The notes beneath the pieces are model-generated. The model saw only the letters and a program-made list of their open reading frames with translations, was not told the DNA's origin and searched no databases. The translations under genes and the position numbers were made by a program. Below, piece by piece: positions 13,620-37,635 of a DNA stretch of 40,875 nucleotides. The stretch is from a virus. Every line of letters starts with the position of its first letter. The stretch's first letter is position 1. The stretch spans positions 1 through 40,875 of IMG/VR virus record IMGVR_UViG_3300047586_000299. One strand, 5' to 3'.

Positions 13620-13772
13620 GAAAGAAAGACAGAGAGAACCACGAAAGACACGAAACACACGAAAGAAAAGACTGTTTCTTCTTTCGTCTCTTTCGTGTTT
13701 TTCGTGGTTCGCCTCTCCTCCTTCCTTGCTGACGCCTGAACCCTTTCCCCCTTTTCTTCCTGGAGTTCTCTC
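13617..13772. repeat. CACGAAAGACACGAAAC hairpin repeat
   Basis: Starting at the peptidase stop, ACCACGAAAGACACGAAACA (about 13638-13657) pairs with TTTCGTGTTTTTCGTGGT (about 13691-13708). A single CCTGAACCC unit and a GGAG ribosome binding site follow before the ATG at 13773. Confidence 0.8.
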
Positions 13773-23374: not shown

Positions 23375-23488
23375 AGCAACGTAGGGCGTAGGGAGTAGGG
23401 AGTAGGGCGATTGAACGCCCCACGCCCCACGCCCTTCTCCCCACGCCCCGCGCCCTACGCCCCACGCCCTCCTCCCCACGCCCCACGC
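23375..23488. repeat. GGGCGTAGGGAGTAGGG intercistronic palindrome
   Basis: GTAGGGCGTAGGGAGTAGGG (about 23381-23400) pairs with CCCCACGCCCCACGCCCTTC (about 23417-23436) and further CGCCCTACGCCCCACGCCC copies. The arms end exactly at the portal ATG. A longer frame for the portal would translate these repeats. Confidence 0.85.
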
Positions 23489-25014: not shown

Positions 25015-27564
25015 ATGGACGAATATCTCCCCCGCGAAAACGAGCACGCCGCCTGGATGCAGGCCACGCCCGAGCTTTTCCTGCATGAGAGCTTCGTCTC
25101 GGAAGACGTCGAGGCGGGCGTTCGTTGCGTGCAGGGCACGCTGAAGGACGGCGACGGCGCCATGCAGCCGTGTGCCTACCTGTTCGACCGCGGCACGTTC
25201 AGCGCCGACAGGGCACAAGCCTGGCTGGCCGGCAAAGAGATCGCCTGCGCCAAGTTCGAGCCGTCGAAGGATGACACGTACAAGCAGATGACCGCCAGCG
25301 CCCCGCGGCAGTTGCGCTTTGCCGCCGCCGCCGCTATCGCCCAAACCGGCGAGGTCGCCGGCAGCTCAGTCACGCCCAAGCTCCCCAAGATCGAGATCCT
25401 CGCCTACTCGGGCGGCCCCTTGAATCTCGACGGCTTCCCGATCCCGGTGGTGGTGAACATCGCCGGCATCCAGTTCGACGCCGAGCAAACGCCCGTTTTG
25501 AAAGACCACGACTCCGCCCTGGTGGTTGGCCACGGCCTGGTCAGCACGACCGTCGACACGATCTCCCTTTCCGGCGAGGTCTCCGGGACGGGCCCGGCGG
25601 CTCGCGAGGTCGTCGCCGCGGCGAAGAACGGTTTCAAGTGGCGCAGCTCGATCGGCTGCGAGCTGGTGGGCGATCACGAGATCATTCGCCCGGGCGAGAC
25701 GCTTTCGGCCAATGGCCAGCGCTTCGAGGGGCCCATTCTATATTGGCCGGCTTCTCGCCTGAAGGAGATCTCCGTTCTGGGCAACGGGGCCGACTACACC
25801 TCTTCCGTTTCGATCGCCGCCCGCGCCGCCAGCGCCCTACTCTCCACTCCCCACTCCCCACGCTCTTCCTCCCTCTCTTCTCCCTTCTCTTCGAGGACCT
25901 CCTTCATGGATCCCATTTTCAGCCAATGGCTGACCGACGCCGGCTTCGATCCGGCGGCCGTCGCCGCCAACCCCACCCAGCTCCGCACGCTGACCGCCTC
26001 GTGGCGGCGTGAAACGAGCCATGCCGAGCTGCAGACCGACATCACCGCCGTTCTCGACGAAACCCGCCGCGAACTGCGCGCCGTGGCCGGCGCGGAAGTC
26101 TCGCGCCTGAACACCATCGCCAAGCTGCACGACGAGGTCGTCGGCGCGTGGGCGCTGGACCTCAAGGATCATCGCGAGATTCGCGCCCGGGCCGCCGACC
26201 TCCGCCGCCAGGCGACGGAAGAGAACTGGACCTCCGAGCGGGCCGAAGTCGCGTTCTTGCGCATGGGCCGTCCGCAGCGCGTCGTCACCGCCAACTACGG
26301 CGCCACCGAGATGCAGCCGCGCGTTTTGCTGGCCGCCGCCTGCCGTTCGTGCATGATGCCCGAAGCGGCCCTCTCGCGTCAGTTCGACGCCGAGACGCTC
26401 GACCAGGCCAGCCGCCGCTATCCGACCATCGGGCTGAAGCAGCTCCTGGTCGAGGCGGCCGCCGCCCGCGGCTGGAGTGGCCGCTGGATCCAGAACGACG
26501 AGGACATCCGCGAAGTCCTGCACTACGCGCTGCCCCCGTGGTCTCCCGAGAACAGCCGCCGCCAGTTGACGGCCGAGGCATCGACCTTCGCCCTGCCCGG
26601 CATCCTCTCCAGCCTGGCCAACAAGTTCCTCTACCAGGGGTTCTGGGCGGTCGAGTCCGCGTGGCGTGAGATCGCCGCCAGCCGGCCGGTGAGCGACTTC
26701 AAGCCGCATCACTCGTTCCGCTTCTACGGCGACCTGACCTACGAGAAGGTCGGCGCCAACGGCGAGATCAAGCACGGCTCGGTCGGCGAGCTGCAATACG
26801 TGAACGCGGCGCAGACCTACGCCAAGATGTTCACGACGACCCGCCAGGACATCCGCAACGACGACCTGGGCGCCTTGGCGCAACTGCCGCAGGCGATGGG
26901 CATGGGCGCGGCCTACGCGCTCAACGAAATCTTCTGGAAGCTGTGGCTCGGCAACACGCAGGCCACCGCCGCGATCACCGCCGGCGCCGGCGGCCGCAAG
27001 GCCCCCACGGTCGGCTCCAGCACGGCCACGTTCTGGTCGACCAACAACACCAACTACATCTCCGGCGCGGCCTCCGCGCTGGGATCGACGGCGTTGACCA
27101 CGGCCGAGAAGACGTTCAACGAGCAGACCAAGCCCGACGGGCACCCGCTGGGCATCCCGGCCGAGATTCTGCTGGTGCCGCCCGCGCTCAAGAACGTCGC
27201 CGACCGCCTCTTCACCAGCGACAAGCTGTATGAAGCGGTTTTGGGCCTGGCATCGACCGCGGCCGCCTCGAAGGACGTGGTGCCGACCGACAACCCGCAC
27301 AAGGGTCTGTTCAAGGTCGTCATGTCGCGCTACCTGTCCGCCGCGATCGGCTACACGGGTTCGAGCGACACCGCCTGGTGGCTCATGGCCGCGCCGGCCG
27401 TGCTGCCGTGCTGCGAGATCGCGTTCCTCGACGGTCAGCAGACGCCGACCGTGCAAAGCTCCGAAGCCGATTTCAACGTGCTGGGAATCCAGCACCGCGG
27501 TTTCTTCGACTTCGGCTGCGCCCTGACCGAGTGCCGCGGCTCGCTCATGTCCGCCGGGGCCTGA
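25015..27564 (+). CDS. prohead protease-major capsid protein fusion (gpT-like capsid)
   Basis: An 849-residue fusion. Residues 1-110 resemble the leading domain of phage proteases. Residues 125-272 form the protease: His165 (VLKDHD), His173 (VVGHG), Ser211/212 (WRSSIG) and the LKEISVLGNGADYTS end. Residues 276-296 are encoded by a CTCCACTCCCCACTCC repeat. Residue 298 (ATG at 25906, GAGGA upstream at 25893-25897) starts the capsid part, which has the gpT-like TTRQDIRNDDLGAL segment near 618-631. Protease and capsid could be made as one polyprotein cleaved later, or capsid could also start internally at 25906. Confidence 0.85.
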   Translation: MDEYLPRENEHAAWMQATPELFLHESFVSEDVEAGVRCVQGTLKDGDGAMQPCAYLFDRGTFSADRAQAWLAGKEIACAKFEPSKDDTYKQMTASAPRQLRFAAAAAIAQTGEVAGSSVTPKLPKIEILAYSGGPLNLDGFPIPVVVNIAGIQFDAEQTPVLKDHDSALVVGHGLVSTTVDTISLSGEVSGTGPAAREVVAAAKNGFKWRSSIGCELVGDHEIIRPGETLSANGQRFEGPILYWPASRLKEISVLGNGADYTSSVSIAARAASALLSTPHSPRSSSLSSPFSSRTSFMDPIFSQWLTDAGFDPAAVAANPTQLRTLTASWRRETSHAELQTDITAVLDETRRELRAVAGAEVSRLNTIAKLHDEVVGAWALDLKDHREIRARAADLRRQATEENWTSERAEVAFLRMGRPQRVVTANYGATEMQPRVLLAAACRSCMMPEAALSRQFDAETLDQASRRYPTIGLKQLLVEAAAARGWSGRWIQNDEDIREVLHYALPPWSPENSRRQLTAEASTFALPGILSSLANKFLYQGFWAVESAWREIAASRPVSDFKPHHSFRFYGDLTYEKVGANGEIKHGSVGELQYVNAAQTYAKMFTTTRQDIRNDDLGALAQLPQAMGMGAAYALNEIFWKLWLGNTQATAAITAGAGGRKAPTVGSSTATFWSTNNTNYISGAASALGSTALTTAEKTFNEQTKPDGHPLGIPAEILLVPPALKNVADRLFTSDKLYEAVLGLASTAAASKDVVPTDNPHKGLFKVVMSRYLSAAIGYTGSSDTAWWLMAAPAVLPCCEIAFLDGQQTPTVQSSEADFNVLGIQHRGFFDFGCALTECRGSLMSAGA
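25838..25905 (+). repeat. in-frame repeat joining protease and capsid
   Basis: CTACTCTCCACTCCCCACTC (about 25838-25857) and the pyrimidine leader TCTTCCTCCCTCTCTTCTCC match the DNA that precedes starts of free-standing genes. Here no stop intervenes, so it is translated as a Ser/Pro-rich linker. Confidence 0.75.
25906..27564 (+). CDS. major capsid protein, possible internal start
   Basis: The same frame as the fusion, starting at ATG 25906 with GAGGA ten bases upstream. It would give a free 552-residue major capsid protein (MDPIFSQWLTDAGFD to SAGA). The leader has the form seen before many separate late genes here. Mu gpT-type capsid proteins are usually shorter (about 300), so the extra N-terminal ~200 residues, largely helical (ETRRELRAVAGAEVSRLNTI), may act as a scaffold-like delta region. 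Whether the fusion, the short form or both are made cannot be read from sequence. Confidence 0.55.
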   Translation: MDPIFSQWLTDAGFDPAAVAANPTQLRTLTASWRRETSHAELQTDITAVLDETRRELRAVAGAEVSRLNTIAKLHDEVVGAWALDLKDHREIRARAADLRRQATEENWTSERAEVAFLRMGRPQRVVTANYGATEMQPRVLLAAACRSCMMPEAALSRQFDAETLDQASRRYPTIGLKQLLVEAAAARGWSGRWIQNDEDIREVLHYALPPWSPENSRRQLTAEASTFALPGILSSLANKFLYQGFWAVESAWREIAASRPVSDFKPHHSFRFYGDLTYEKVGANGEIKHGSVGELQYVNAAQTYAKMFTTTRQDIRNDDLGALAQLPQAMGMGAAYALNEIFWKLWLGNTQATAAITAGAGGRKAPTVGSSTATFWSTNNTNYISGAASALGSTALTTAEKTFNEQTKPDGHPLGIPAEILLVPPALKNVADRLFTSDKLYEAVLGLASTAAASKDVVPTDNPHKGLFKVVMSRYLSAAIGYTGSSDTAWWLMAAPAVLPCCEIAFLDGQQTPTVQSSEADFNVLGIQHRGFFDFGCALTECRGSLMSAGA

Positions 27565-27772: not shown

Positions 27773-28975
27773 ATGACTCAGACCGCAGCAGTCTACTACG
27801 ATCGCGGCTGGGACGTTGACTACACTCCGTCCAGCTACGTCTACGCCGGCGACGTCGTCCTCGTTGGCACCATCCCGATGGTCGCCCGTGGCGACATCGC
27901 CGCCAACGAGAAGGGCTCGCTGGCCACGGCCGGCGTGTTCCTGGTTCCGAAAGACGCCAGCGTCTTCGCCGCCGGCGACGCGGTGTACTGGAACGCATCG
28001 GCGACCGACCTCGGCAACAACACCGGCGCGGCCTCCAACTCCGCCAGCGGCGCGAACCTCATGGGCGTGACCGTGATCGCCGCCAATGCGGCGGCCACCA
28101 CGGTCGAGACGCTCTTGCACGCCGCCAAGCGCACGGCGACGATCGCCGGCGCGGTCACCGCCACCGACATCACCGGCAGCGATAGCGCACTCTCGATCAC
28201 CGGCCTGGCCGGCGCCGGGGTCGGCGGCACAGTGACCATCGTCGGGGCAACCGGCGCGGCCACCTACGCCGGCGGCCTGGTCAGTATGACCGGCGGGGCC
28301 GGCAACACGACCGGCGACGGCAACACGGCCAGCATGGTCGGCGGGGCCTCCGGCACCGGCGCGACCGGCAACGGGGCCGCGGCCATCGTGACCGGCGGTG
28401 CGGCCCTCTCGGTCACCGGCAACGGCGGCCCCGTGACCGTGGCCGCAGGAGTGGCCACCAACAGCGGAACCGGCGGCCCAGTCACCGTGTATTCCGGGGC
28501 CTCGGCCGCGGCCAACGGCACGGCCGGCGCCCTGACGATCGACACCGGGGCCAAAACCGGCGGCACGGCCGGCGCGCTCTCGATCGGTGCAACCAACGCC
28601 GGCGTCATCACCATCGGCGGCGCCAACAGCACCTCGCTTACGCTGGGCAAAAACCCGCGTGTCCCCTTCGCCAGCGTGGCGGCCACCGGCACGGTCATCG
28701 GCAACGCCGCGGCCGTCGTCGAGGGCTGGACGCTGGTCACCGGCGCCGACAACTCGGCCGGCATCCAGTTGCCCACCTGCGTCAACGGCGCGAAGTGCAT
28801 GATTATCAACCAGAACACGGTGAAGACGCTGAAGATCTACCCGCCCACGGCGAAGCAGATCAACGGCGCAGGCGCCAACAACGCCATCACCCTGGTTGCC
28901 AACGGCACGGCCATGTTCGCCAGCGAAGGCGCCAACGCCTACTACGGCGGCCTGTTCGCCGGCATCATGTCGTAG
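27773..28975 (+). CDS. capsid decoration-type protein (DUF2190-like) with repetitive extension
   Basis: A 400-residue protein directly after the capsid gene. Residues 1-118 match the DUF2190 capsid-decoration pattern (AGDVVLVGTIPMVARGDIAA, ...VYWNASATDLG...LMGVTVIAANA). Residues 120-290 are a low-complexity Gly/Ala/Thr/Val/Asn domain of short repeats (GGAGNTTGDGNTASMVGGAS), which suggests a beta-solenoid or fibrous extension. Residues 290-400 form a further beta domain (KCMIINQNTVKTLKIYPPTA). Decoration proteins trimerise on the capsid surface. The extra parts would be displayed on the virion exterior and are candidate substrates for the glycosyltransferase-like gene that follows. Confidence 0.7.
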   Translation: MTQTAAVYYDRGWDVDYTPSSYVYAGDVVLVGTIPMVARGDIAANEKGSLATAGVFLVPKDASVFAAGDAVYWNASATDLGNNTGAASNSASGANLMGVTVIAANAAATTVETLLHAAKRTATIAGAVTATDITGSDSALSITGLAGAGVGGTVTIVGATGAATYAGGLVSMTGGAGNTTGDGNTASMVGGASGTGATGNGAAAIVTGGAALSVTGNGGPVTVAAGVATNSGTGGPVTVYSGASAAANGTAGALTIDTGAKTGGTAGALSIGATNAGVITIGGANSTSLTLGKNPRVPFASVAATGTVIGNAAAVVEGWTLVTGADNSAGIQLPTCVNGAKCMIINQNTVKTLKIYPPTAKQINGAGANNAITLVANGTAMFASEGANAYYGGLFAGIMS

Positions 28976-29158: not shown

Positions 29159-30760
29159 ATGTCAACTCCTGACTTCCAACTCCCCACTCCCGACGCCCAA
29201 CATTCGGTCTACCTGGCCGTACCCGGCGTGCAATTCTGCTGGGGCACTTTCATCGGCGTCTTGAACGCCACGAGCCGCCACGTCGTACATCCCTACAACG
29301 GCGGCGGCGGCTTTTCTTGCGTGTTCGACTTCAACGTGTTGTGGGCAGATGCGCTGAATCGCTTCGAGGCGGGGGAGATCACCCACTTCGCCATGCTGCA
29401 CGGCGACATCGTGCCCGACGTCCAGCAGCGCTGGCTCGACATCCTCCTGGAGGAGATGGACGCCCGCGACGCCGAACTGGTTTCCGCCCCGTCGCCGATC
29501 AAGGACGATCGCGGCGTCACGTCCACCGGCATCTGCGACCTGGCCGACACCTGGCGGCCCTGGCGGCGCTTCACGATGCGCGAACTGTGCGAGCAGCTCC
29601 CCGAGACGTTCGACCACGTCGCGGCCGGCTACCCCGATCGCCCCTTGCTGCACAACACGTGCTGCTGGGTGTGCGACCTGCGCAAGCCAGTGTTCCGCGA
29701 AACCAACTCCGACGGCTCGCTGAAGATGCTCTTCCGCTTCCCGGAGCGGATCGTCCGCGATGGGGCAGGGCACTGGCTGAAGCAGGCCGAGAGTGAAGAC
29801 TGGGTGCTATCGCGCGAGCTGTGGGAGCGCGGGGCCAAGAACACCTGGATCACGCGCCGCGTCCGCCTGCAGCACCGCGGCATGCACGAATGGCCCAACG
29901 ATCGGGCCTACGGCCGCTACAAGGACGGCGACGAAGACACGCGCGACAAGTGGGGCGCGGCCGTCGACGCATTGCCATTGCGTCTGGTGCAACTCTTGAA
30001 TTTCGAGCTGAGCCCCAAGTGCAACCTTGGCCGGAAGCACACGGAGTGCCCCAATCAGCACCCGGGGCGTTTCGCCGGCCTTTCGACCGCCGCCCGGCTC
30101 GACGACGACACGATCGTCCGCTCGGCCGTGGCCGCCTACCGCGACCTGGGCTTCAGCGGCCTCGTGGGATGGGCCTACTACAACGAGCCGCTCTTGGAGG
30201 CGGACCGCATGTTCCGCTTGATGGACCGCATCAAGGCGGAAGTGCCGCAAGCCCGTTTCATCCTCTGGACCAACGGCACGCTCATTCCCGCAGACTGCGC
30301 CGCCTACCGGCAGTTCGCGCAGATCGTGGTTTCGGGCTACGACGACGTGCCCGAGAGTCGCCGCGGCTTCGAGCGCCTGGCCGCGCTGAACATCCCTTGC
30401 GACTTCCGCCCGCATGCCGGGCTGGATAACCGCCTCGTGCAGATCACGCCGGCCGATCCGGCCGCGGCCTGCCTGCGGCCGTTCGTCGAGTTCCCCATCG
30501 ACTGCTACGGCAACGTACACCTGTGCTGTTACGACTGGCGCGGCGGCGGCACCCCCGGCAACATCCTCCTGGAAGGTCTCCCCCTCGTCGCCCGCCGCTG
30601 GCGCGACGGCCTCTCTGCGATCGCCGGACCCGCGATGACCCAAGAAGCCCCGGCGACGTGTCGCACGTGCGGTCACCGCTGGGACCGTTATCAGCAGCAC
30701 GACGCGGCGATCGTGGCCCGCGCCGAGCGCTGGCGTGGCCAATTGGCCACTTCCGCCTGA
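29159..30760 (+). CDS. glycosyltransferase-like + degenerate radical-SAM/SPASM-like fusion
   Basis: A 533-residue protein in the head operon. Residues 20-250 resemble a GT-A glycosyltransferase: FAMLHGDIVPDVQQRWLDIL replaces the usual DxD, and EDWVLSRELWERGAKNTW plus LQHRGMH fit the family's end. Residues 280-420 align by pattern with radical-SAM TIM barrels (FELSPKCNLGRKHTEC, YYNEPLLEADRMFRLMDRIK, FILWTNGTL), but CxxxCxxC is absent: only Cys288 and Cys297 are there. Residues 438-504 look SPASM-like: Cys438, 449, 456, 457, 501 and 504. A role in modifying a virion protein is an inference. The ATG at 29159 was chosen; earlier codons are repeat DNA. Confidence 0.6.
   Translation: MSTPDFQLPTPDAQHSVYLAVPGVQFCWGTFIGVLNATSRHVVHPYNGGGGFSCVFDFNVLWADALNRFEAGEITHFAMLHGDIVPDVQQRWLDILLEEMDARDAELVSAPSPIKDDRGVTSTGICDLADTWRPWRRFTMRELCEQLPETFDHVAAGYPDRPLLHNTCCWVCDLRKPVFRETNSDGSLKMLFRFPERIVRDGAGHWLKQAESEDWVLSRELWERGAKNTWITRRVRLQHRGMHEWPNDRAYGRYKDGDEDTRDKWGAAVDALPLRLVQLLNFELSPKCNLGRKHTECPNQHPGRFAGLSTAARLDDDTIVRSAVAAYRDLGFSGLVGWAYYNEPLLEADRMFRLMDRIKAEVPQARFILWTNGTLIPADCAAYRQFAQIVVSGYDDVPESRRGFERLAALNIPCDFRPHAGLDNRLVQITPADPAAACLRPFVEFPIDCYGNVHLCCYDWRGGGTPGNILLEGLPLVARRWRDGLSAIAGPAMTQEAPATCRTCGHRWDRYQQHDAAIVARAERWRGQLATSA
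30735..30750. repeat. perfect 16-bp palindrome GTGGCCAATTGGCCAC
   Basis: Lies in the last codons of the preceding gene. The same core occurs at 540-553, 753-770 and 39786-39803. Confidence 0.8.
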
Positions 30761-30874
30761 AAGAAAGCCAACCACGAAAGACACGAACCACACGAAACCA
30801 TTCCGATCTTTCTGTCCATCATCTTTCTGTCCTGCCTCTTTCGTGTCTTCCGTGTCTTTCGTGGTTTCCCTCCC
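30761..30874. repeat. CACGAAAGACACGAACC hairpin with ATCTTTCTGTC units
   Basis: CCACGAAAGACACGAACCAC (about 30772-30791) pairs with TTTCGTGTCTTCCGTGTCTT and TCGTGG (about 30839-30864). In the loop, ATCTTTCTGTCCATC and ATCTTTCTGTCCTGC match the arms of the hairpin at 14989-15035. Confidence 0.85.
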
Positions 30875-31246
30875 ATGATTGGAACTCTCTCCGAAAACCT
30901 GCGTTACGGCGCCGCGCAGCTCGAACCAAACGGCGAGCTGCTTAGCTACCGCCGCGGCCACAACGTGTGCGAGTGGCGCGCCCGCCCGCAGGCGCCCGAC
31001 TGGGTGGCGGTCCTCGATAGCGGCATTGTCGAGGAATGGCAGGGCCTCGACTGGGTCGGCCGGCCGCAGGCCCTCATGTTCCCCAGTTCCGGCCAGGTCA
31101 CGCCGCAGCTTGGCGACCGCATCGACCGCCAGGTCAACGGTCAAATCGAGACCTACCAGGTTTCCGCCCCGAAGGGGATGCAGCCCTACAGCGTCTCCGC
31201 CTACGCAGAGCACGTGACAATTCACACGAAGAAAGTAGCGAGTTAA
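30875..31246 (+). CDS. head-tail connector / head completion protein candidate
   Basis: A 123-residue protein starting MIGTLSENLRYGAAQLEPNG, mostly beta (WRARPQAPDWVAVLDSG, VTIHTKK). Size, fold type and place between the head genes and the tail-terminator-like gene fit a head completion or stopper protein. The leader is TTTCCCTCCC without Shine-Dalgarno. No specific family was recognised. Confidence 0.5.
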   Translation: MIGTLSENLRYGAAQLEPNGELLSYRRGHNVCEWRARPQAPDWVAVLDSGIVEEWQGLDWVGRPQALMFPSSGQVTPQLGDRIDRQVNGQIETYQVSAPKGMQPYSVSAYAEHVTIHTKKVAS

Positions 31247-33542: not shown

Positions 33543-33821
33543 ATGGGCCCGCTCGAATGGATCACCCTGATTGTCGGCGCTCCGAGCGCCGTGGCCGCCT
33601 GTTATGGCATCGTGCGCTGGCTGGCGGCCGTCATCGCTCGCATCGCCGCGATCGAGGCGTGCATCACGAGCATGGCCGAGAAGCTCACGCGGCTCTGCGA
33701 CCGTGAAGACGCCCGCCGATGTCAGGAACACAGTACACGGCTGACCGAGATCGAGCGCCGCCTGGGCGTGATCGAACGCGGGCCGTCGCGTCACGCCACG
33801 CACCACGTTGACGGAGACTGA
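33543..33821 (+). CDS. small protein with membrane span and coiled coil
   Basis: A 92-residue protein. Residues 6-32 (WITLIVGAPSAVAACYGIVR) are a membrane-span candidate, followed by a helical, heptad-like region (IARIAAIEACITSMAEKLTR, TRLTEIERRLGVIER). This topology resembles small phage membrane proteins. Its place between tail tube and chaperone genes is unusual. No family recognised. Confidence 0.5.
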   Translation: MGPLEWITLIVGAPSAVAACYGIVRWLAAVIARIAAIEACITSMAEKLTRLCDREDARRCQEHSTRLTEIERRLGVIERGPSRHATHHVDGD

Positions 33822-33950
33822 CCACGAAAGACACAAAATACACGAAACCATTCTCTTCTTCTTTTCTCTCTTCTTCCCCTTTCGTGTGTTCCGTGTTTTT
33901 CGTGGTTCCCCTCTTCTCTTCCTGAACCCTGAACCCTGAACCCTCCTCCC
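33822..33950. repeat. CACGAAAGACAC hairpin and CCCTGAA tandem
   Basis: ACCACGAAAGACACAAAATA (about 33822-33841) pairs with CTTTCGTGTGTTCCGTGTTT and TTCGTGGT (about 33879-33907). CCTGAACCCTGAACCCTGAA follows before the ATG at 33951. Confidence 0.85.
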
Positions 33951-34753: not shown

Positions 34754-35836
34754 ATGTCCTCCGTCGGCTCGAACATTTCGATCGGCGTCTCCGCCAACAT
34801 CACCGACCTGAAGGCGAAGATGGCCGGCGCGCGCAAGGAGGTGCAGGGCCTTGGCGAGGCGGTCCGCAACGTGGGCGGCCATGGCGGGGGCGGCTTGGCC
34901 GGAGCGATGAAGTTCTTGAAGCCCACGTTCAAGGAACTGGGCATGGGCCAGGCCGGCATCTTTGGCCATGCGCTGCACGGCATCGGGGCAGGGGGCATGC
35001 TCGGGGGCCTGGGCGCGGTCGCCGGCGCCGTCGGCGCCTACCACATCGTGAGCGGCGGCATCAGCGAGTCGGGCCGGGAGGCGCGCGAAGGAATCGCCGC
35101 CTCGCACAAGCTGGGCGTCAGCTACGGCGATTACGAGCGCATCAGCAAGGCCGCCGGCGACGACAAGGAGGTTCTTGCCGGGCTCGCTATCGAACTGCGC
35201 AACCTGGCCTACGTCGGCAAGGATGCCGCCGCATCGGTGGAACGCTTCCGTAATAGTCTGCCCGCGGGCGCATCGGGCGGCCTCGGCAAGGCGCAGATCA
35301 AGAGCGATGCCGGCGGCTTCATCGACAAATACGGGAGCCTGCAAGGGGCCGCGAAAGGGCTGTTCAATCTCGGCGTGAATATCGGCACTCAGAATCTCGA
35401 CACATACTTTCCGGGCTTGCGCCGCCAGCACGATTTCTTGGCCGAGCGGCGTGACCAGGCTGAACGGCGGCAGGAAGCGGCCGCGCGGATCGGCGCGCAG
35501 TCTGATTCGTTTCTCACGCCCGGCGACGCGCTGAAGAAGCGGCTCGAGGAGATCGCCGAGGCACGCCGCGGCGGGCTGGATTCGACGATGGCCGCCCGCG
35601 CCGCCGTCCTGGCCGGCGGGCAATACGGCTCCGCCATGCAGTCGGCCGCCATGCCCGGGGCGATGACCGAAGGCTCCGCCGCCGCCTACTCGGCGGTAGC
35701 CGGCTACCAAGGCCGCCAGCAGGATGCCCAGTACGGCCAGGAGAAGATGATCGAACTGCTCGGCTCGATCGACCAGTCACTCGTCAATTTGGCGACGCAA
35801 GAGCGCAACTTCCAGCACCAACCCGCCATCCCATAA
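34754..35836 (+). CDS. tail tape measure protein (short)
   Basis: A 360-residue protein following the chaperone pair, with the helical, Ala/Gly-rich character of tape measures (ISIGVSANITDLKAKMAGAR at the start) and a hydrophobic segment near 70-98 (GAGGMLGGLGAVAGAVGAY). Tape length sets tail length, so 360 residues implies a short tail, about 50 nm by the usual 1.5 angstrom per residue. The end is Gln-rich (YQGRQQDAQYGQEKM). Confidence 0.68.
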   Translation: MSSVGSNISIGVSANITDLKAKMAGARKEVQGLGEAVRNVGGHGGGGLAGAMKFLKPTFKELGMGQAGIFGHALHGIGAGGMLGGLGAVAGAVGAYHIVSGGISESGREAREGIAASHKLGVSYGDYERISKAAGDDKEVLAGLAIELRNLAYVGKDAAASVERFRNSLPAGASGGLGKAQIKSDAGGFIDKYGSLQGAAKGLFNLGVNIGTQNLDTYFPGLRRQHDFLAERRDQAERRQEAAARIGAQSDSFLTPGDALKKRLEEIAEARRGGLDSTMAARAAVLAGGQYGSAMQSAAMPGAMTEGSAAAYSAVAGYQGRQQDAQYGQEKMIELLGSIDQSLVNLATQERNFQHQPAIP

Positions 35837-35941
35837 CAGACCACGAAAGACACCAAATACACAAAAGGAGTCTCTTCTTTCGTTTCTTCCGTGTATTTCG
35901 TGGTTTCCCTCTTCTCTTCCTGAACCCTGAACCCTTCTTCC
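35837..35941. repeat. CACGAAAGACACC hairpin and CCTGAACCC tandem
   Basis: GACCACGAAAGACACCAAAT (about 35841-35860) pairs with TCGTTTCTTCCGTGTATTTC and GTGG (about 35879-35903). A CCTGAACCCTGAACCC unit then leads to the ATG. Confidence 0.85.
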
Positions 35942-37516: not shown

Positions 37517-37635
37517 GAAGAGCATTGACCACGAAAGACACGAAACACACGAAATGATTTTGTTCTTTTCGTGTGTTCCGTGTTTTTCGTGGTTCCTTCT
37601 TCCTTCTTCCTGAACCCTGACCCCTGAACCCTCCC
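37517..37635. repeat. CACGAAAGACACGAAAC hairpin and CCTGAACCC tandem
   Basis: GACCACGAAAGACACGAAAC (about 37528-37547) pairs with TTTTCGTGTGTTCCGTGTTT and TTCGTGGT (about 37566-37593). CCTGAACCCTGACCCCTGAA precedes the TTG start at 37636. Confidence 0.85.

Follow-up and report, generated by a model that had tools for sequence, protein, structure and literature searches.

What is a predicted two-domain enzyme doing among the structural genes of a phage? In the window analysed here, which is an entire virus record of 40,875 bases, one gene of the head region encodes a 533-residue protein that an initial annotation, made from the DNA alone, had read as a glycosyltransferase fused to a degenerate radical-SAM/SPASM-like protein and had linked to virion-protein modification.

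The fusion gene and its head-gene neighbourhood

The genes on which the question turns are as follows.

25015..27564, + strand: fused head maturation protease / major capsid protein (phrog_4523, phrog_133)
27773..28975, + strand: head decoration protein with a Gly/Thr/Ala repeat, immediate upstream neighbour of the fusion gene (phrog_122, E 5e-16)
29159..30760, + strand: GT-A / BtrN-like radical-SAM-twitch fusion protein, 533 aa (ATG at 29159, stop ends at 30760; supported by the frame, relatives and the model)
30875..31246, + strand: downstream head-region gene, conserved in position (homologues follow the fusion gene in relatives whose contigs reach that far)

A portal gene (phrog_21) lies at 23411, upstream of the protease/capsid and decoration genes. 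The same arrangement recurs in every phage found to carry the fusion (the window, L019, L039, L049, L050, L052, L061 and L066): in 8/8 the decoration gene is directly upstream of the fusion gene, within about 220 bases as judged by matched stretches, and portal and protease/capsid genes precede it. The placement between a decoration gene and the next head gene is therefore conserved in relatives, and the co-occurrence of homologues with the decoration protein that the initial annotation had proposed as a check is seen throughout. Its label of "head-completion" for the downstream gene found no confirmation in PHROGs; the position of that gene is conserved. The Gly/Thr/Ala extension that it described on the decoration protein is also present, but a role for the extension as substrate is weakened. 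Seven of the eight decoration proteins have the Gly-rich repeat, and L049 encodes the fusion enzyme together with a decoration protein that lacks it, so the extension cannot be an obligatory substrate and was rejected as such. The repeat (28160-28700 in the window) also differs in length between phages, and looks much like an optional insert ahead of a conserved C-terminal domain.

Two further features of the region were observed. The protease and capsid protein form one 849-aa frame (25015-27564), an arrangement also present in a 49%-identical relative (L002) and in the fusion phages. Short repeat families (ACCACGAAAGACACGAA..., AATCCCTAATCCCC..., CTGAACCCTGAACCC...) occur many times in the window, in both orientations and mostly between genes (for example 274-359, 13638-13701, 30766-30876, 33816-33937, 35835-35935 and 37523-37624).

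Relatives and folds of the two domains

Single-sequence searches with the window protein (P0001) of viral_contigs, genome_contigs, INPHARED phages and PLSDB returned no full-length relative, and PHROGs gave no match for the protein by itself. A DNA pattern for the glycosyltransferase signature PIKDxRGxTST matched 46 viral loci. Two of these, L039 (60%) and L019 (59%), match the window protein over its full length, having been recovered through the glycosyltransferase half alone, and the remaining loci match that half only. Scanning with the aligned radical-SAM half picked barrel motifs that added L049, L050 and L052, and a pattern for the Cys-His-Cys motif described below brought in two further fusions, L061 (whose fusion gene is cut by its contig end) and L066, along with standalone relatives. 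To avoid selection on Cys-His-Cys, we also used two motif-independent patterns, GNxHxCCxDW from the twitch region and WHYYNEP from the SAM site. Overall, about 30 relatives of the radical-SAM-like domain were found in viral contigs, and 31 sequences were aligned, with pairwise identity down to 20%. No relatives were found in INPHARED, and all relatives recovered come from uncultivated viral contigs; a capsid search matched one short contig and nothing in genome_contigs. Cellular genomes were searched with exact short patterns only, which miss 60% relatives, so absence from cells is not implied.

An AlphaFold2 model of the 533-aa protein (input 49 sequences) has a mean pLDDT of 93.2 and a pTM of 0.83, with two confident domains. 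The N-terminal one comprises the following features.

29201..29908, + strand: GT-A glycosyltransferase domain, residues about 15-250 (structure match 12-250; model fold, about 50 viral relatives)
29399..29407, + strand: H81-G-D83, candidate metal/nucleotide-sugar motif (H81 and D83 invariant, 42/42)
29495..29515, + strand: P113-I-K-D-x-R-G119, family signature (K115, D116 and G119 42/42; this stretch belonged to the search pattern for most rows)
29795..29800, + strand: E213-D214, candidate catalytic acidic pair (42/42)
29873..29875, + strand: H239, candidate metal ligand (42/42)

Fold comparison (Foldseek was also run) matched the model of this half to STIV A197 (Z 16.2), the LH3 accessory domain (Z 15.1), COLGALT1 (Z 14.1) and mimivirus R699 (Z 14.1), in agreement with its initial description as GT-A-like. 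The phage domain has the GT-A fold in common with these four proteins at Z 14-16, but is only about 10-13% identical to them and has H-x-D as its metal motif. We infer the roles given to H81-x-D83, E213-D214 and H239. Pfam gave no glycosyltransferase match for the window protein and few weak GT2-type matches among its relatives, and the GT-A fold alone does not fix donor or acceptor. At several loci, members of the GT-A family are fused, at either end, to what by sequence is an apparent class I methyltransferase (L006, L008, L009, L034, L043, L031, L003, L018 and L028).

The C-terminal domain has these features.

29969..30703, + strand: BtrN-like radical-SAM plus twitch domain, residues about 271-515 (BtrN 4m7t Z 19.4; hmmsearch E 1.6e-20)
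30020..30049, + strand: C288-x5-H294-x2-C297 replacing CxxxCxxC (31/31; H294 aligns with the BtrN central Cys, C20)
30182..30190, + strand: N342-E343-P344, equivalent of the SAM-binding GGE motif (E343 and P344 31/31; identical in a BtrN-like protein)
30269..30277, + strand: T371-N372-G373 barrel motif (N372 31/31)
30431..30433, + strand: R425, equivalent of BtrN R152 (31/31; paired by alignment)
30470..30472, + strand: C438, twitch auxiliary-cluster ligand 1 (31/31; pairs with BtrN C169)
30524..30529, + strand: C456, ligand 2 (counterpart of BtrN C187), plus the family-specific C457 (both 31/31; a BtrN-like protein has Tyr at 457)
30659..30670, + strand: C501-x2-C504, ligands 3 and 4 of the auxiliary cluster (31/31 and 30/31; aligned with BtrN C232/C235)

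The barrel and SPASM-like layout proposed for this half likewise agrees with the high-confidence model. Residues 271-515 superimpose on BtrN with an rmsd of 3.3 over 227 residues (Z 19.4), followed by ChlB (Z 14.3) and anSME (Z 14.1). BtrN was the top match in both structure comparisons and in the profile search and is the only close solved relative; a single-sequence PDB search with the window protein gave a marginal match to it (E 0.017). Pfam SPASM scores the window protein at 16.7 bits, below the cut-off of 21.5, and matches 13 members of set A5 at E<=0.01 (best 8e-11).

BtrN, a radical SAM enzyme of the twitch type, oxidises a hydroxyl group on an aminocyclitol; its SAM-cluster cysteines are C16/C20/C23, and its auxiliary cluster probably accepts the electron (PMC9012708). 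It acts as a dehydrogenase on the aminocyclitol 2-deoxy-scyllo-inosamine in the butirosin pathway (PDB 4M7T/4M7S). The phage domain shares its barrel and twitch fold, the SAM-site Glu, Arg152 and the four auxiliary-cluster cysteines, which are spaced C438-x17-C456-x44-C501-x2-C504 and form the same twitch set as C169/C187/C232/C235 (BtrN residue numbers were counted along the printed chain). Across the alignment of 31, E283, C288, H294, C297, P298, E343, P344, R350, N372, R425, C438, C456, C457, D459 and C501 are invariant. In its fold, with the partial (beta/alpha) barrel of radical SAM enzymes, and in its SAM-site residues and auxiliary-cluster cysteines, the protein is of the BtrN twitch type. 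It differs from BtrN in the extra invariant Cys (C457), in the cluster motif (CX5HX2C rather than CX3CX2C), and in setting: BtrN is a single-chain antibiotic-pathway enzyme, whereas the phage domain is fused to a glycosyltransferase in a head operon. The 2-deoxystreptamine pathway context of BtrN was not seen at the phage loci, which have head genes instead. The closest plasmid-borne relative, a BtrN-like gene with the canonical CNRRCTYC, lies beside genes for a 2-deoxy-scyllo-inosose synthase and a glycosyltransferase. As at the phage loci, a BtrN-like gene in Sodalis adjoins a glycosyltransferase gene.

The Cys-His-Cys cluster motif

Cys288 and Cys297, with eight residues between, had been read as replacing the canonical CxxxCxxC. 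The unusual motif is indeed present, as C-x5-H-x2-C, and by motif the phage protein falls outside the canonical radical SAM enzymes; the word "degenerate", however, did not hold up. The His is present in 31/31 aligned sequences and three cysteines at these positions in none, and residues conserved at such divergence (identity down to 20%) argue against decay, so we regard Cys-His-Cys as a conserved variant and reject random decay of CxxxCxxC. A frameshift or assembly error was also rejected, as the fusion is common to eight phages. Relatives collected with the motif pattern have Cys-His-Cys by construction, and the informative count is that of the 21 found without it: L039 and L019 (glycosyltransferase pattern); L049, L050 and L052 (barrel motifs); L069, L071, L073, L074, L076, L077, L078, L080, L082, L085, L086, L087 and L088 (twitch pattern); and L090/L093 (counted as one), L092 and L096 (SAM-site pattern). 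All 21 have C..H..C, and none has CxxxCxxC. The form is CX5HX2C in most members, CX3HX2C, with canonical spacing, in L073 (CNLRHSWCPN), and CX5HX3C in L090/L093 and L096.

Known radical SAM enzymes, including the variants CX5CX2C, CX14CX2C and CX2CX4C, use three cysteines for the SAM cluster (PMC4389238). HmdB, compared by its published motif alone, has the same outer spacing as the phage protein (CX5CX2C; PMC4389238), but with Cys rather than His in the middle. Given the HmdB spacing with Cys and the canonical spacing with His in L073, the motif sequences can be read as a His that replaces a cluster ligand. We found no radical SAM protein with CX5HX2C or CX3HX2C in open-access papers. In a tree, the BtrN-like outgroup had a very long branch and grouped within the family, a possible long-branch artefact, and we draw no conclusion on the number of origins of the His.

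In the absence of a canonical CX3CX2C, SAM cleavage cannot be assumed. The domain might have lost radical chemistry and serve as a scaffold or acceptor-binding module for a glycosyltransferase acting on a virion protein, with Cys-His-Cys as a structural site (e.g. for zinc) or a non-SAM-cleaving Fe-S site. This would fit the lack of the three-Cys motif in every one of the 31 aligned relatives, as well as the failure of Pfam Radical_SAM to match the window protein or, at E 0.01, any member of A5. We nevertheless consider it unlikely. Over a range of about 20-60% identity, the SAM-site Glu, the TNG Asn, the BtrN active-site Arg and the auxiliary cysteines vary little or not at all; in most members two residues still separate the His from the last Cys, and L073 has an exact CX3HX2C, a pattern that resembles ligand substitution rather than loss. 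Tentatively, and at somewhat under even odds, we propose a phage branch of radical SAM proteins in which two Cys and one His hold the SAM-binding [4Fe-4S] cluster and which, with glycosyltransferases, makes unusual virion sugars. A conserved family with His in the middle would put to the test whether SAM can be cleaved with a His ligand, and in what way that ligand shifts the potential of the cluster.

Canonical CxxxCxxC radical-SAM genes adjoin the Cys-His-Cys gene at three loci: L056:4144-5076 and L074:2246-3244, where the neighbour is a Pfam-confirmed radical-SAM/SPASM gene, and L064:8917-9969, identified by eye. This suggests that the two types do different jobs in the same phage.

A probable role in glycan modification

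The two domains are joined in more than one way. The GT-A and radical-SAM-like domains occur in the window order in eight phages and in the reverse order in L096; in L073 the two genes overlap, unfused, and in L055 both are in one genome but apart. In L056, L069, L074, L082 and L085, the radical-SAM-like domain is fused to a different, GalNAc-transferase-like GT-A domain. A model of the L082 protein (pLDDT 85, poorer at the C-terminal end) matched BtrN (Z 18.7) and chondroitin-synthase/polypeptide GalNAc-transferase domains (Z 15-16.5). That the radical-SAM-like domain is joined to glycosyltransferases again and again, in both orders and with two types of partner, argues that it acts in glycan making. 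The repeated fusion gives a direct lead to its substrate, and would connect iron-sulphur radical chemistry with the glycosylation of virions, so far known in only a few phages. We found no description of such a fusion, and no paper linking BtrN with phages, among the titles and abstracts of open-access literature.

Our preferred reading, to which we give a probability of about one half, is a two-domain phage glycan enzyme whose GT-A domain attaches a sugar and whose BtrN-like domain modifies it, probably on a virion protein. The GT-A domain would use an activated donor to place a sugar on a structural protein encoded by the neighbouring genes (decoration or capsid), and the BtrN-like domain would then oxidise or otherwise alter a hydroxyl-bearing carbon of the transferred sugar. 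In this scheme, C288, H294 and C297 would hold the SAM-binding [4Fe-4S] cluster, R425 would sit at the substrate like R152 in BtrN, and a second cluster on C438, C456, C501 and C504 would take up the electron, the fusion uniting addition and modification of the sugar in a single polypeptide. Homology to BtrN, with R152 and the auxiliary-cluster cysteines kept, suggests a two-electron oxidation of a hydroxyl-bearing carbon, and the gene order suggests that the acceptor is a virion protein, making virion modification the most likely role.

Phage glycosyltransferases frequently change host surface sugars, and the enzyme might accordingly modify a host surface glycan, so as to change the receptor or shut out other phages, or a target of lysogenic conversion. 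We judge this quite improbable, since host-modifying genes mostly lie outside the structural block, while the fusion gene is inside the head gene block in 8/8 fusion phages and glycosyltransferase-only relatives are often located directly after the gene for a capsid or decoration protein (L006, L008, L016, L030, L034, L043 and L031). Least probable in our view is that the radical-SAM-like domain alters a side chain or the backbone of a structural protein, as SPASM peptide maturases do, with the glycosyltransferase then acting on the altered residue. Matches to the peptide- or protein-modifying SPASM enzymes ChlB (Z 14.3) and anSME (Z 14.1), and fusions of relatives to domains like protein glycosyltransferases, would accord with it. 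These matches are weaker than that to BtrN, a small-molecule alcohol dehydrogenase (Z 19.4 versus about 14) whose R152 is kept, and the model shows no domain for leader-peptide binding.

Glycosylation of a phage capsid has a precedent in mycobacteriophage Che8 (as cited in PMC11256854). Che8-type virions resemble the proposed system in that phage-encoded glycosyltransferases are linked to capsid-protein glycans, but no radical-SAM-like partner is described in that paper. The glycosyltransferase genes of Maravista lie near the far genome end, outside the head block, whereas the fusion gene lies within it.

The standalone radical-SAM-like genes and those of the GalNAc type lie near terminase, portal or head protease/capsid genes (phrog_9, phrog_12, phrog_133), with several of the standalone relatives between terminase and portal and without an adjacent decoration gene, a position that tells against our preferred reading. 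Some of these loci have GT29-, GT2/GT92- or GT1-type genes nearby. Beside the L054 gene region, L054:942-1601 resembles a PIG-L type deacetylase in sequence and is a possible sugar N-deacetylase.
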